32,013 nt of DNA from Phycisphaerales bacterium (lineage in GTDB: Bacteria > Planctomycetota > Phycisphaerae > Phycisphaerales > UBA1924). The position numbers were made by a program, and so were the translations under genes. Shown here piece after piece: positions 632 to 30,560 of the stretch. The stretch's first letter is position 1. Each line of letters begins with the position of its first letter. The notes under the pieces are model-generated. The model saw only the letters and a list, made by a program, of their open reading frames with translations, was not told where the DNA came from and made no database searches. The stretch lies in contig JAKFUN010000169.1 in assembly GCA_021732675.1 (NCBI GenBank), positions 1 through 32,013 of the forward strand, written 5' to 3'.

Positions 632-1333
632 ATGCCGGTACGAATGACCAAGCGCGACAAGACCAACGAAGTGTTGAAGGTGGCGAACCCCGTCACCGCC
701 CCCGAGGCCGTCGCGGCTCTCAAGAAGTTCAAGGCCCCGAAGTTTGACCAGACGGTCAACGTCTGCATGCACCTGAATCTGGACACGGCCCAGGCCGACC
801 AGAACCTGCGCGGAGCCATCAGCCTGCCACAGGGCATCGGCAAGAGCAAGCGTGTGGTGGCCTTCTGCGGGGCGGACCTGACCAAGGCCGCCATCGAAGC
901 TGGGGCTGTAAAGGCGGGGAGCGAAGATCTCGTCGCCGAGATCGAGAAGGGGTGGATGGAGTTCGACGTGGCGATCGCCAGCCCCGACATGATGCGGGTG
1001 GTCTCCAAGCTGGGTAAGGTGCTCGGTCCCAAGGGCCTGATGCCCAGCCCCAAGGCTGGCACCGTGACTCCGGACGTGGTGAAGGCTGTGAAGGAATACG
1101 GCGCGGGCAAGGTGGAGTATCGGGCTGACAAGGCTGGCAACGTGCACGCGGTCATCGGCAAGATGAGCTTCCCCGAGGCGTCGCTGGCGGAGAACCTCGA
1201 GTTCTTCATCTCGGCGATCGAGAAGACGCGGCCCGCCACCGTCAAGGGGCTGTACGTCAAGAAGGTTGTGATCAGCGGGGCCATGACCCCCAGCGTCCAG
1301 GTGAAGTTCGTGTCGGCCTTCGAGGCTGAGTAA
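632..1333 (+). CDS. rplA: 50S ribosomal protein L1
   Basis: L1 motifs such as VVSKLGKVLGPKGLMPSPKAGTVTPDV and a KAGNVHAVIGKMSF region; follows rplK. Confidence 0.97.
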   Translation: MPVRMTKRDKTNEVLKVANPVTAPEAVAALKKFKAPKFDQTVNVCMHLNLDTAQADQNLRGAISLPQGIGKSKRVVAFCGADLTKAAIEAGAVKAGSEDLVAEIEKGWMEFDVAIASPDMMRVVSKLGKVLGPKGLMPSPKAGTVTPDVVKAVKEYGAGKVEYRADKAGNVHAVIGKMSFPEASLAENLEFFISAIEKTRPATVKGLYVKKVVISGAMTPSVQVKFVSAFEAE

Positions 1334-1405
1334 CGCGGGCGGCGAGAAGCGAATCCCACAGCGAAACAGAGATTCGGCCCCCCGTGGGCGAATGAGGTAA
1401 GAACC

Positions 1406-1963
1406 ATGTCAAAGACTGTCAAGAACATCATCATGCGGGACTACAAGACCCGCATCGCCTCCGGCCTTGAGGAATATCCCGACGCGACCCTGATCAGCAT
1501 TCGCGGCGTCAAGGGCGTCGACTCCACCAAGCTGCGCATGGCGCTGGCCAAGAAGAAGGTTCGCATCACCGTGGTGCAGAACGCCCTGGCCCGCAAGGCC
1601 TTCGAGGGGAGCAAGCTGGCGCCCCTGGGCGAACTCATGACCGGCGGCAACGCCATCGCCTACGGCGGCGAGTCGGTCGTCGAGGTGGCTCGTGAGCTGG
1701 TGTCGTGGATCGCCAAGATCCCCGCCCTCGAGCTCAAGGGTGCCGTGCTCGATGGCACCTTGTTCAAGGGCAAGGCGGGCGTGGAAGAGCTCTCCAAGTT
1801 CCCCACCAAGGACGAGGCGATCGCGAAGGTCATCACCCTGGCGGTCAGCCCTGGGCGCAACCTGCTGGGCCAGCTCCAGGGCCCGGGCCGGACGATCGGC
1901 GGGCTTATCAAGGCGATCGAAACGAAGTTGGAGAAGGGCGAGACGATCGCCAAGGCTGGTTAA
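1406..1963 (+). CDS. rplJ: 50S ribosomal protein L10
   Basis: L10-like sequence (LISIRGVKGVDSTKLRMALAKKKVRITVVQNALARKAFEG); position between rplA and rplL. Confidence 0.94.
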   Translation: MSKTVKNIIMRDYKTRIASGLEEYPDATLISIRGVKGVDSTKLRMALAKKKVRITVVQNALARKAFEGSKLAPLGELMTGGNAIAYGGESVVEVARELVSWIAKIPALELKGAVLDGTLFKGKAGVEELSKFPTKDEAIAKVITLAVSPGRNLLGQLQGPGRTIGGLIKAIETKLEKGETIAKAG

Positions 1964-13864: not shown

Positions 13865-14677
13865 CTATCGCCAATCCGCAGCGTCGGGGACATAGTGCGG
13901 GGCATTCGTACGCCCAACCGAGCCGACGCCCTGCTCTGGCTGCGTCAACCACTGGGTCTCTGCCATCTGGCGCTTGACGCTCCCGTCCGCCCGAGCCGCG
14001 ATCGTCTCGCCCAGGCCTCCACGCCCGCGTGAGTGACGAAACGAAGTGGTGGGGTAGGAGTTTGCGTCCCACCCGCTCCCGTTCCAAAGCTCGGGCGGGT
14101 CCAGCAGCGCGGTGTTGCGGGGCATGGTGGTGCCCAGCAGCGAATCCGCGAAGACAAAGAGCTCGCTGGGAAGGGTAAGCTCATAGAGCCGGCGCCAAGG
14201 GCGGCGGCTGATATTTGACGCCCAGCCCGGAGTGCGCGACGGCGTGAGGTAGTAGCCGTTATAGCCGTAGGTGCTGGTGGGGGCGCCAACGACGCCTTGC
14301 GTGCTGTAGGTTCCCCATGGCTGCGCGGGGCACTCGAAGACCGACTTGCGGGCCAGCTCCGCGCCCAGGTAGGGGGAGATGAAGCCCCGATCGTGATTGA
14401 CCTCGAGACCGGAAGCCGCGATCGACCCCCACCAATAGACGGACCCGCCGGAGCCCACGTCCGCCAGGCTCCAGTAGGCCAGAGGCATGGCGCGATCTTT
14501 GTAGTCGTTGGCGTAGGCGGTCCAGCCGACGATGAGTTGATGCTGGTTGGAGAGGCACACCGCCCCGCGAGCCGCGGCCCGCGATTGACGCAACACCGGC
14601 ACCAGCAGCCCCACCAGCACGGCGATGATGGCGATGCACACCAGCAGCTCCATGAGCGTAAAGGCGCGGCGCCTCAA
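13865..14677 (-). CDS. Type II secretion/pseudopilin-like protein with prepilin N-terminus
   Basis: [29 protein letters not shown] prepilin cleavage/methylation motif; C-terminal [10 protein letters not shown] as in planctomycete pseudopilin-like families. ATG overlaps the stop of the upstream gene. Confidence 0.88.
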
Positions 14678-16476
14678 GGCAGCACCCCAAACCTCAGTTG
14701 AGGCCAGGTGGGCCGAAGCGAGCGAATCAGCGTGCGGCGGTCTTCCTCGTTCGTGACGTGATCACGATTGACGTCGCGATCTCCAAAACCGGCCTCCCAG
14801 ACGTAGAGGTCGTCGATGGTGCGGGTCTTGTTTCGGTTGACATCCAGTCGCGCGGGGGTGGCGCCAAACATCGCCAGGCCATCTGAGCCGATGCTCGCCA
14901 TCGACACGCCCGCGATGCCCGGGCTCCCGCCCGCTGCCGTCGCCGACGAACAGGCAACGATGAAGTCCTCTGAGCTGGGCTCTTTGTCGATGTCGAGGAT
15001 GTACAACCCGTCTCCGGGACCGTTGAGGTCCAGGCTCTCGGCCGGCACGCCGACGACCAGCAGGTTTCGCCCGTCCGCAGTGAGCAATGCCGGCTGGTGG
15101 CGCCACCCTCCAAGGCTCAGAAACTCGTCGAGGTCAATCTCGCCATCACCATCAAGGTCAATCCAGGTGGAGAAAACGGTGTTCCACACCCCGGCGACGC
15201 TGGTTTGGGACTCGGTGGAAGTTTCTTGAAAGAGCTCGACGCCCGACGCGCTTCCGTAGCCGTTGATGCCGCTGGAGAGGAGCACGCGCCGGTCGGGCAG
15301 AGGCATCGGCACGGATGAAGAGCGATTGGAGGCGACCGACCAAACCACGCTGCCGTCCAGCCCGTTGAGGCTTAGGAGATTGCCAGAGTCCAAACCGCCG
15401 AAGAAGGCGTATGAGGCGACATAAACGCGAGGCGCCGGGTCGGTGTCGGTGGGGGGGGCGACCGAAACCCCTCCAAAGAAGCCCAACGGCTCTGGGTTTG
15501 CGGTCTGCCACGCGAGGTTGGGCGAGTTGTCCGCGGCCACGAAAGCCCGCACGACTCCGTTGCCGTACCCCCCGGGAGCAGGGGACGCGACGTAGACCAG
15601 CCCGGCGCCACCCTGGCAGGCGGGCAAATAGGCCGGGGAGTTGCCAACACTCGAGCCCAGTGGGGCGGACCAGACGATCTCGCCGGGCTGGAAAGGGTTG
15701 AGCACGCTGTCGCACTCATCGACATTGATGCAGTAGAGCTTGGCGGAGTTCCCAAACCCGTCGGCGTCGGTGATGAAGAGGCGATCGGCCGGCCCGAGGT
15801 CGTTGGTGATGACCGGGTTGGCGTCGATGATGTCGCGTGACAACTGGCGTTGCCAGACCACTTCGCCGTCGTACAGGCGCAGGGCGGTAACCTTGTTCCC
15901 CGAGCAAACGATGACGGTGTCATGCTCAGGGTCGACGGTGATGCCAGCGTTGGAGTCAGCCACGGGGTTCGCGACCGGGGTCTCCCACTTGGTCTCGCCG
16001 TCGTCGCGCGAGAAGGCGATGGCATAGGTCTGATTGGCGGCATCGATGGGGCGGGAGATGCGTCCCAGGGCGATGACCAGATTGCGCCGGCTGGGTGAAG
16101 TGATGGCCAGTGGCGCCTGCGCGAGAAACCGGATGTCGTAGCCGTCGCTGTCTTTGTCGACCGTCCAGGCCGCGATATCGATTCGCGGCGGCGCGGCGCC
16201 GCGCGCCGCAACGCGCATAGGAGTTCCCGCCAGCGTGAGCCACTCATCAGGGCTCGGGCCGGGGCAGCTGGAGGGAACCTGCGCGAACACGGGCGCGGAC
16301 GCCGCGACGATCGCTGTGAAGCACAACCTTGGCGACCACTTGGCGCGCACCGCGTCTGCGTGTTTCGCGGGCTCGCGTTGGGGTCGTTGCTTGGTCTTCA
16401 CAACCGCGTACTTCGTCTTTCGGCGAGGCACGCGTACTCTCTCTCGGTCGTTCACCTGCGGCGAGCCCGCACGCAC
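14674..16476 (-). CDS. Secreted beta-propeller (PQQ/quinoprotein-like) protein with EF-hand/dockerin-like C-terminus
   Basis: Repeated blade-like segments ([47 protein letters not shown]); Ca-binding [14 protein letters not shown]-terminal [40 protein letters not shown] resembles dockerin repeats. Exact start uncertain. Confidence 0.75.
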
Positions 16477-20031: not shown

Positions 20032-21333
20032 TCACTTCCCTGACTTTTGCCGCTCCATCTGCGCCTTGATCATTTTTCGAATCTGCGTCGCCTGAGCCTT
20101 CATCCCGGGCACGCTGTTCAGGTCGGCATCGATGGCCGTGAACCACTGCGTGCCCGCGTAGGTGTACCCGTCGTCGGTGAGGTGGTTCTCCAGGTCCGGC
20201 AGGTGTCCGGCGCCGTAGAAGAGCGCGATGGACTTGGGAGCGGGCTTTTCCGCGCTCGCCGCCGCCAGGTCCTTGAGCACCGCCTGGTTGCGGTCCTGCA
20301 CGATCACCTTCATCAGCGTGTCCAGGCCCTGGCCTTGCTTGCCGGCGATGGCCGCCAGGTCGTCCGCGTGGGCCAGCACCTCGACCATCATGACTTTCAC
20401 CGTCAGCGACAACTCCGGGCTGCGTTCCACAAAGCCGAGCATGAAGCCCATGAGCTTGGAGGCAAAGGATGAGCCGTCCAGCATCTTGAAGAGCGCGTCA
20501 CCCGACGCCCCTGAGGCCTCGAGCTTCTTCTGCACTTCGTCGATCGACAGATCGCTGTTGCGCCAGTTGGGGTGCGAGTAGTCAATCGCGGCCAGCTGAA
20601 ACTTCAGCCCCATCGCGCGGGCGAGCTTGGTTTGGATTCCCTCCCCAGAACTGTCGAGTTCCTGTGTGGTGAGCGGCTTCTGGGTGGAGAAAGCGATGTC
20701 CGCCGCGGCCCCTTCCCCCCCGGGGGCGGCGTCGTTTCCAAGGCTGATGATGTCAAACTTCGCGGGAGTCGCGGGGTCAACCTTGAGCTCTTGCGGATGG
20801 CCCCAGGCATCGATCGTGGCGGCTTTGCCGAGTCTTGCGATGCTCCCGTGCAGCGGCGTCAGCACCTCTTCAAAGCTCGCCGGCATCGCGTTCTTCTCTG
20901 CCCGAAACCTCGAAATCAGCACCGCGAGCAAACGCTGGCGCTGGATCGTCACCTTCGCCTTCGCCGCGTCGTCCCCCGGCTCAGCCTCGTCGGCCCCCGA
21001 AGGCTTCACCCCTTCGAAGAGCACCAGCCCCTGCCCGTCCAAGTACTTCTGCAACGCGTCGTAGTAGGCCTGGTCGCCGATGTGCACCACGCCCACCAAC
21101 TGAACTTCTGGCGCGCCGGGCTTGGTCAGCGTGCGAACCGCGATCTCGAGTTTGAGGCGCGAGCCGCCCTCTGCGTCGGTCACGCGGATGTACTTGCCTT
21201 CAGATTCGGAGGGGGTAGCCGCAGCGGCAGGTTGCGGCTCCGAAGACTTCGGCGCCTGAGCCCAACCAACCCTCGGGTTCAAGCCACCACCCAACACGAG
21301 CAACGCGGCGACGGTTCGAAGTGAGCGAAGCAT
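20032..21333 (-). CDS. TraB/GumN-like secreted protein with internal GspG-like segment
   Basis: Signal peptide-like N-terminus; VQLVGVVHIGDQAYYDALQKYLDGQGLVLFEGVKPSG and ALFYGAGHLPDLENHLTDDGY resemble TraB; internal DAWGHPQELKVDPATPAKFDIISLGNDAAPGGEGAAADIAFS resembles the GspG C-terminal domain. Confidence 0.7.
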   Translation of the reverse strand: MLRSLRTVAALLVLGGGLNPRVGWAQAPKSSEPQPAAAATPSESEGKYIRVTDAEGGSRLKLEIAVRTLTKPGAPEVQLVGVVHIGDQAYYDALQKYLDGQGLVLFEGVKPSGADEAEPGDDAAKAKVTIQRQRLLAVLISRFRAEKNAMPASFEEVLTPLHGSIARLGKAATIDAWGHPQELKVDPATPAKFDIISLGNDAAPGGEGAAADIAFSTQKPLTTQELDSSGEGIQTKLARAMGLKFQLAAIDYSHPNWRNSDLSIDEVQKKLEASGASGDALFKMLDGSSFASKLMGFMLGFVERSPELSLTVKVMMVEVLAHADDLAAIAGKQGQGLDTLMKVIVQDRNQAVLKDLAAASAEKPAPKSIALFYGAGHLPDLENHLTDDGYTYAGTQWFTAIDADLNSVPGMKAQATQIRKMIKAQMERQKSGK

Positions 21334-28615: not shown

Positions 28616-29353
28616 CTAGTTGTACGCGAGGCAACTTGCCCACGTCGACTGGCCCAGCAACCAGGCCTTCTCGTCGCTGTACCCATCTTGCAGGTTCTGG
28701 GTTGCGAAAAGGCACGCGAACTGGCAACAGAGCTTCTCGATCTCCCTCGAGGCACCAAAGCCAATCGAGATGAACGGCACCGAAAAAAGCGGAACTCCAT
28801 CCGCCCCCGCGCACGTGCAGCTCGCGCCGAATCGCCCCGCGTCGCCTGAAGGTGCTTCCCCAGCGGCCAGTCCCACATTGGGCGAGCTTCGGAGCGATTC
28901 CATCTCCTGGGCGATGCGTTCCGGAGAGACCAGGCTCGCGACCATGAACTGGCGGCTGACACCCTGCGGGCCCGTCAGTTGCACCTTGGAGATGACGACG
29001 CCAACCCACCTGGGAGCTTCATCAGGCGAGTGCAGCTCGGCGAGGGCCAGGCTCCACTGGACCGATCCCACCCCGTCGCGGATGGCGGCAGGAAACTCAG
29101 CCACGACCAGTCGCTCGTCTGCGACGACAAGCACGCCAGCGTTCGCCCCCGTCGCATCTTCCAGCGTCAGCATCCCTCCCGGCACCTCGTAAGCGATATG
29201 CGTCGAGTCGGGGAGGCTGCTTGACACTTCCGCGCGAGTCTCGAGGGCGGGCTCCCGGGACCGATCGACCCCCACCTGGCCATGGGCGAGGGGGGGCACC
29301 ACCATCGAAAGCAACCAGAGGGCGGCTCGAAACGCTGGGAAAGATCGTGGCAT
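28616..29353 (-). CDS. Secreted Cys-rich protein of unknown function (copy A)
   Basis: ATG 29353 with GGAG upstream; signal peptide MPRSFPAFRAALWLLSMVVPPLAHGQ; C-terminal CTC...PFISIGFG...EKLCCQFAC...GYSDEKAWLLGQSTWASC matching the neighbour at 29737-30471. Confidence 0.72.
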   Translation of the reverse strand: MPRSFPAFRAALWLLSMVVPPLAHGQVGVDRSREPALETRAEVSSSLPDSTHIAYEVPGGMLTLEDATGANAGVLVVADERLVVAEFPAAIRDGVGSVQWSLALAELHSPDEAPRWVGVVISKVQLTGPQGVSRQFMVASLVSPERIAQEMESLRSSPNVGLAAGEAPSGDAGRFGASCTCAGADGVPLFSVPFISIGFGASREIEKLCCQFACLFATQNLQDGYSDEKAWLLGQSTWASCLAYN

Positions 29354-29736
29354 CGGAGGGCTCCTTTGAGGACTGGCCGGATGGCGTGCGGTGTGTGTGC
29401 CGCGCCATCGCTGATTCAACCCAACCCCAGCGGAGAGCATGATGACTGAGATTGGTTATCGCAATAGGGACTTTGCTTCACTTTGGCCAAGATGCCGTGT
29501 GCGGCCCGCGTCTTCCCCCTCAATAGAGAAGGCAAATCGGGCAGTCAGCCACCGAACTTCGCGCGAGAACGGCAAGGCGATGTCGAGACTTGAGGGGACG
29601 CTGCCGCGGATGAAGATGGGCAAAGTGCTAAGCGACCAAAACTCTACGGAAAAAGAAGCGCCGGCCATGGCGTGACCGGCTCTCCGAGGAGGCATCGTGC
29701 GAGCGTATTGAAGACGCTCGCGACGAAGACCGACGG

Positions 29737-30471
29737 TTAGGCGCAGAGCATGCAGGTGACCCACACGCCCTGTCCGACGAGCCAGGCTTCGGGGTAGCCG
29801 GCTCCGGTGTGGAGCGAGTTGCACCCGGCCGCGCACGCCAGGCCGCAACAGGCTTCTGCGACCGACGACGTGTTCCGAACTCCGATCACGAAGAAGGGCG
29901 CCCAGAAACGACCACCCAGGGGGCAGGCGGGGCAACTGCAGGAGGATCCCAGGCTGCGGGCGGCATTGGCCTCGGCCGAAGGAACCACTTCGACCCCGCT
30001 GGTGCTGCGAATGGCTTCGATGACTGACCAGGCGGTGTCGTCGGTGATGATGCTGGCCGCGCTGAAGGCGGTCACGATTCCGGCCGCGTCGACCAATCGC
30101 ACATTGGAGATCACGAGCCCAGCCACGATCGGCGAGCTGTCGGGGGTTAGAAGCGTCCCGCGAGCGACCGACCAGGTGACCGTGCCGCTCGCGTCGTTGA
30201 TGGCGGCTGGCAGATTGCTGGCGACCACTTCCTCGTCATTGATCAGGAACGCGCCCGTGGTGGCCCCGCTCGCGCTGCTCAGGGTGAGGGCTGACGCCGT
30301 CGCAAACGACGCCAGATAGGTGGAACTCCCGCAGCTGGCAGTGGGGGAGCCGATCGACACGCCGCTGGGCTGGGCAGTTTGAACACTCCCGACCTGGCCC
30401 AGGGCCAGCGAACTGAGCATCAAGCCCGCAGCCGCACACATCGCCCGAACACAAGCCATTGAGAATCGCAT
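29737..30471 (-). CDS. Secreted Cys-rich protein of unknown function (copy B)
   Basis: ATG 30471 with GGAG upstream; signal peptide MRFSMACVRAMCAAAGLMLSSLALGQ; C-terminal CSCPAC...PFFVIGVR...EACCGLACAAGC...GYPEAWLVGQGVWVTC. Confidence 0.75.
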   Translation of the reverse strand: MRFSMACVRAMCAAAGLMLSSLALGQVGSVQTAQPSGVSIGSPTASCGSSTYLASFATASALTLSSASGATTGAFLINDEEVVASNLPAAINDASGTVTWSVARGTLLTPDSSPIVAGLVISNVRLVDAAGIVTAFSAASIITDDTAWSVIEAIRSTSGVEVVPSAEANAARSLGSSCSCPACPLGGRFWAPFFVIGVRNTSSVAEACCGLACAAGCNSLHTGAGYPEAWLVGQGVWVTCMLCA

Positions 30472-30560
30472 GCACAGATCTCCTGGTCGCAAGAGGCGTG
30501 CCGCCCAAGTTCACACGAGCCTGGGCCGCACGCGAAAAGACAGCGGGTGAATGTCATACA

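Follow-up and report, generated by a model that had tools for sequence, protein, structure and literature searches.

A TraB-like protein of Phycisphaerae with an inserted GspG-type pseudopilin domain

A TraB-like protein of 433 residues from a Phycisphaerales bacterium carries a second domain within its core, and this domain belongs to a family known from filament subunits. Residues ~112-218 are confirmed as a complete GspG globular domain, and structural modeling confirms the prediction of two folds within one chain. The gene lies in a window of 32,013 nucleotides, the whole stretch of DNA analyzed here (contig JAKFUN010000169.1, assembly GCA_021732675.1). On the reading proposed here, to which we give about even chances, the protein would be a periplasmic TIKI-type hydrolase whose once-inserted GspG domain acts as a Ca-stabilized module for substrate or partner recognition at the rim of the active site.

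Profile searches recover both parts of the protein. Pfam places T2SSG at residues 170-214 (E 2.4e-6, above the cut-off) and TraB_PrgY_gumN (PF01963) at residues 323-391, where the 25.8 bits fall just below the 26.8 cut-off (E 1.1e-5) and the match is borderline alone. The NCBIfam GspG equivalog scores sub-threshold (23.9 versus 88.85 bits), and a phmmer search against the PDB leads to EpsG/GspG chains. Among 45 orthologues, T2SSG (PF08334) matches 43 and TraB matches 30 at E<=0.01. A hydrophobic N-terminus with a cleavage-like site, recognized by a simple heuristic, is present in 44 of 49 orthologues, and the fusion protein is probably exported to the periplasm.

AlphaFold, run on the alignment of 45 orthologues, models the full protein with a mean pLDDT of 87.9 and a pTM of 0.82, and builds the insert as a helix (residues 122-147) followed by a small sheet. 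Modeled alone from an 80-sequence alignment, the insert reaches a pLDDT of 93.2 and a pTM of 0.84. Foldseek assigns the modeled domain to EpsG/GspG: the first eight PDB matches of the whole model are EpsG chains at probability 1.00, and the nine top matches of the insert alone are all EpsG, with TM-scores of 0.71/0.69 to 3gn9. With so small a domain the Foldseek E-values stay modest (1e-3), and the probability and consistency of the matches carry the assignment. When hhalign compares the profile of the inserts with that of genuine pseudopilins of sister genomes, the match spans 94 columns at 99.5% and E 9.3e-23. The first-pass annotation had already read the gene as a TraB-like fold with an embedded GspG-type domain, and profiles, structure prediction and the collection of 135 insert-bearing and 20 empty-site homologues bear this out. 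Its boundaries need revision: the segment it marked (residues 131-216, positions 20686-20943) does lie within the domain, but the domain is larger, spanning ~112-218 and starting with the helix at 122-147 (Table 1).

Table 1. Features of the TraB-GspG gene, numbered in the window, and of other proteins with GspG-like domains, numbered by locus
Feature	Position	Strand	Basis
Whole gene, 433-aa TraB-like protein with GspG-like insert	20032..21333	-	ORF; Pfam T2SSG and TraB; orthologues
Predicted Sec-type signal peptide, ~residues 1-26 (...VGWAQA)	21256..21333	-	Sequence and simple heuristic in orthologues
TraB/TIKI core, N-terminal part, residues 46-110	21004..21198	-	Common to insert-less homologues
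First GxxH motif, residues 81-84 (H84)	21082..21093	-	H84 invariant in 155/155 rows
Catalytic-type glutamate E107, end of core strand	21013..21015	-	Invariant in 155/155 rows; model strand 103-106
Inserted GspG-like (T2SSG) domain, residues ~112-218	20680..21000	-	9-36 residue linker in 20 insert-less homologues; folds alone; Foldseek EpsG
Helix 122-147, counterpart of pseudopilin alpha1-C	20893..20970	-	AlphaFold/DSSP; profile alignment with genuine pseudopilins
D175-A-W177 of DxWG motif	20803..20811	-	D and W invariant in 135/135 insert-bearing rows
Putative calcium-site loop S197-D212 (SLGNDAAPGGEGAAAD), ligand-type D201 and D212	20698..20745	-	Conservation; GspG 3G20 correspondence
TraB/TIKI core, C-terminal part, residues 222-430	20044..20670	-	Pfam TraB 323-391; contiguous with N-terminal part in insert-less homologues
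Conserved basic residue R348 of DRN motif	20290..20292	-	Invariant in 155/155 rows
Second GxxH motif, residues 374-377 (H377)	20203..20214	-	Invariant in 155/155 rows
Non-pilin GspG-like domain proteins	L204:587-1471; L205:263-832 and 914-1780	+	
Non-pilin GspG-like domain proteins	L207:264-932 and 963-1652; L197:897-1415	+	
Non-pilin GspG-like domain proteins	L206; L203	-	

Conservation separates the inserted domain from the filament subunits to which it is related. Invariant insert columns in the 45-orthologue alignment include D175, W177, S197 and D212, and T129 and R132 are conserved among inserts but not among pilins, which fits a domain that has adapted to its host. The inserts have neither a prepilin signal nor a transmembrane helix; as the first-pass annotation had held for the prepilin helix, no prepilin motif occurs within the first 160 residues of 49 orthologues. 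Their alpha2/beta1 segment is ~10 residues shorter than in genuine pilins, and its W-GPY is gone. With all of these losses, the insert would be incapable of polymerizing.

The surrounding core carries the residues expected of a TIKI-type enzyme. Beyond pseudopilins, Foldseek gives the full model only one weak match, 7w5z_E (probability 0.44), which we take to be a TraB-type subunit of Tetrahymena complex IV. H84, E107, R348 and H377 are invariant in all 155 rows (135 insert-bearing and 20 insert-less), while the glycine of the first GxxH motif varies (G/A/S). These four residues correspond to the His/His/Glu set and essential Arg of the TIKI enzyme RRSP, on whose description the motif assignment rests (PMC6254334); no clear equivalent is seen for the second Glu of RRSP. 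Together they would make up a TIKI-type active site for the cleavage of a peptide or ester. The related PrgY is peptidase-like and acts outside the cell (PMC7117660).

Within Planctomycetota, the fusion is conserved throughout the Phycisphaerae branch. Among 150 genomes of the same family, 109 contain some match and ~80 contain a full-length or near full-length homologue with 33-71% identity. In a scan of 85,462 species genomes, nearly all of the best 80 loci are titled Phycisphaerae, Phycisphaerales or Planctomycetota. One locus is outside Planctomycetota by title, in a 'Kiritimatiellae' MAG (L100). Another, in a 'Cyanobacteria' MAG (RHKP01000003.1, L076), is probably mislabeled: it is collinear with a Phycisphaerales locus (L083), and the neighboring genes are mostly 78-97% identical. 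One genome encodes, in addition to its normal copy, a second and very diverged TraB-GspG paralogue (L051, G114:C73) with ~28% identity, a long branch and the catalytic-type residues kept.

Other Planctomycetota preserve the state without the insert. In their proteins the domain is replaced by a linker of 9-36 residues directly after LxEGV(K/G)P, and the two pieces matched by the TraB profile (~10-110 and 215-392) adjoin each other directly or almost directly. Eight insert-less proteins scanned against Pfam show TraB and nothing else, four of them above the TraB cut-off. A chimeric contig or a frame error that fused two genes would be the trivial explanation, and its probability is negligible. 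The 135 insert-bearing sequences, from many genomes, share one insertion point, which rules such an artefact out; their reading frames are uninterrupted, and codon-position GC is alike in core and insert.

Phylogenetic analysis suggests one gain. A tree built on core columns only has a branch (SH-aLRT 93) that sets the insert-bearing rows off from the others, with L104 as the exception. This Phycisphaerae protein is nested among the insert-bearing rows, but its insert is reduced to 41 residues, which makes it a natural near-deletion with the enzyme kept. This pattern indicates one gain and at least one near-loss, and the insertion was apparently gained once, in an ancestor of Phycisphaerae-type Planctomycetota. 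A tree of the domain itself (94 columns) cleanly separates all inserts from all pilins (SH-aLRT 99). The inserts are their own clade, diverged from pilins and kept in nearly all descendants sampled. Branch supports were computed by a quick method and the trees contain some long branches; the sequences were collected by profile and pattern searches that are non-exhaustive.

The insert also preserves a putative calcium site. D201 and D212, kept in 127 and 128 of the 135 insert-bearing rows (~94%), correspond to the Ca-coordinating residues D117 and D125 of GspG 3G20, and the ligand assignment rests on that description (PMC3396595). A few members have this loop lost, weakened or degraded (L047, L073, L111, L122, L132, L138 and L139). 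Judged from these residues, the insert is plausibly a Ca-dependent module, and the domain may fold around one calcium ion. The GspG encoded in the genome of the TraB fusion described here (L193:301-927, minus strand) has a shortened Ca loop (SYGRDKLENTNDDLV), whereas the TraB insert has the full-length loop.

The position of the insert suggests a place beside the active site. It follows LFEGV(K) directly and leaves the core five residues after E107, in the loop after the E107 strand, which would place it at the active-site rim. There it may form a rigid, Ca-stabilized module that selects a substrate or partner. The same proximity to E107 would suit an enzyme gated by calcium, in which Ca binding orders the loop beside the active site, so that a Ca-rich extracellular medium turns the enzyme on. 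The Ca site of GspG is known for a role in folding and stability rather than signaling, which speaks against such a switch, as does the full catalytic set kept in several members whose Ca loop is degraded. In favor of gating, PulG without Ca misfolds and undergoes domain swapping close to the Ca site (PMC6692295); on balance this reading is quite improbable. Degraded Ca loops and the near-loss in L104, with the enzyme kept, indicate that neither the Ca site nor the insert is strictly required for core function.

GspG-like domains without a prepilin motif are not confined to the TraB fusion. Phycisphaerae genomes also encode them, single or in tandem, in DUF4190-like two-helix membrane proteins, whose DUF4190 matches lie below the Pfam cut-off, and in a short lipoprotein. 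This reuse, together with the near-loss of the insert in L104 and its greater variability (mean pair identity 0.32 versus 0.38 for the core), would agree with a passive structural spacer, a freely reused Ca-stabilized extracytoplasmic module tolerated in a surface loop and contributing stability or bulk only. Such a spacer is possible but doubtful, because the insert is retained at ~30% pair identity with D175 and W177 invariant, the Ca aspartates ~94% conserved and T129/R132 specific to inserts. Retention and conserved positions across diverged members suggest selection for more than bulk. A broader view, put forward tentatively, is that the GspG globular domain escaped the filament and now serves in the planctomycetal periplasm as a general Ca-binding recognition module, built into membrane proteins and lipoproteins as well as peptidase-like enzymes. 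The TraB enzyme would use it as a substrate-selecting, Ca-dependent active-site rim.

The first-pass annotation had proposed a link to the type II secretion pseudopilus. As an adaptor, the insert would dock the TraB enzyme on the pseudopilus or secretin, and the enzyme would process pseudopilins or itself be a T2SS-secreted exoprotein. The homology of the insert to the major pseudopilin speaks for this, as do T2SS-type genes that this genome carries elsewhere, on contig C14 (homologues of GspG, GspF and GspE), and the T2SSG proteins in 41 of 41 genomes sampled. These 41 include genomes without the fusion, however, and across 63 neighborhoods no conserved T2SS gene accompanies it (GspF in none, GspE-like in two, GspG-like in one). 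The loss of the prepilin helix and of the W-GPY alpha2/beta1 segment, which leaves no polymerization helix, and the reuse of the domain outside filaments, in unrelated non-pilin proteins, argue further against a secretion-system adaptor. The link is therefore unlikely and is not sustained. A Ca-stabilized recognition module remains the favored reading, followed in order by a passive spacer, a T2SS dock and a Ca switch.

The neighborhoods as a whole show little conservation. Any one gene is conserved in at most 16 of the 63. Isoprenoid-pathway and housekeeping genes are the commonest neighbors, and DXS, polyprenyl synthase, GcpE, topoisomerase and MotA/ExbB are among the frequent ones. In the window, the gene has an ABC-F ATPase gene downstream and, upstream on the other strand, bL31 and metH (both named by eye). 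The window also contains a PQQ-type beta-propeller ORF (14674-16476, minus strand) and, directly after it, a prepilin-type (N_methyl) ORF that is DUF1559-like by eye (13865-14677, minus strand). The latter was considered as a functional partner of the TraB gene and set aside, the synteny being common only to the closest relative (L053). Two neighboring exported ORFs (28616-29440 and 29737-30492, both minus strand) have no Pfam match, are mutually similar by eye and end in cysteine-rich C-termini (CTCAGADG and CSCPACPL).

Pseudopilin domains are familiar as building blocks of the filaments in secretion and pilus machines. The fusion described here is an apparently single-origin transfer of the whole pseudopilin globular part into an enzyme that is probably exported. 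Both the before-state, an insert-less TraB protein, and the likely donor family, the resident pseudopilins, are available for comparison, and the role of a pseudopilin domain without a filament becomes testable. The fusion also offers an entry point to how enzymes of the TraB/TIKI family, which is poorly understood, recognize their substrates. For annotation, it means that T2SSG matches in Planctomycetota need not be secretion-system components.

Set beside known systems, the protein combines features of two families. It resembles TraB/PrgY/GumN (TIKI, PF01963) in its core profile match and in the two GxxH motifs with His, Glu and Arg all invariant, yet it differs in its inserted domain of ~105 residues, which is absent from insert-less planctomycetal members. 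The insert shares with the globular domain of GspG/EpsG/PulG (PF08334) the fold, the DxWG motif and the S-x-G-x-D...GG...D residues of the Ca site, whereas it lacks the prepilin peptide and transmembrane helix, has a shorter alpha2/beta1 segment without W-GPY and sits inside an enzyme. The first-pass annotation knew of no described fusion of this kind, and a search of the open-access literature found no published GspG-TraB fusion either; a single paper there, on a Verrucomicrobiota isolate, names Phycisphaera together with pseudopilins. Domain databases may already list the architecture.

The closest published precedent found is the PERCAL insertion of bacterial animal-type peroxidases, a Ca-loop that its authors relate to pseudopilin (PMC3396595). 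In both cases a pseudopilin-like Ca loop is placed within a catalytic domain, but PERCAL is an 11-residue loop only, with several insertions, whereas here a whole folded pseudopilin domain was apparently inserted once. RRSP and other TIKI-superfamily enzymes likewise equip a TIKI core with extra domains that help substrate recruitment (PMC6254334). The extra lobe of RRSP, however, is N-terminal and unrelated to pseudopilins, and RRSP is a toxin effector, unlike the chromosomal planctomycetal protein.
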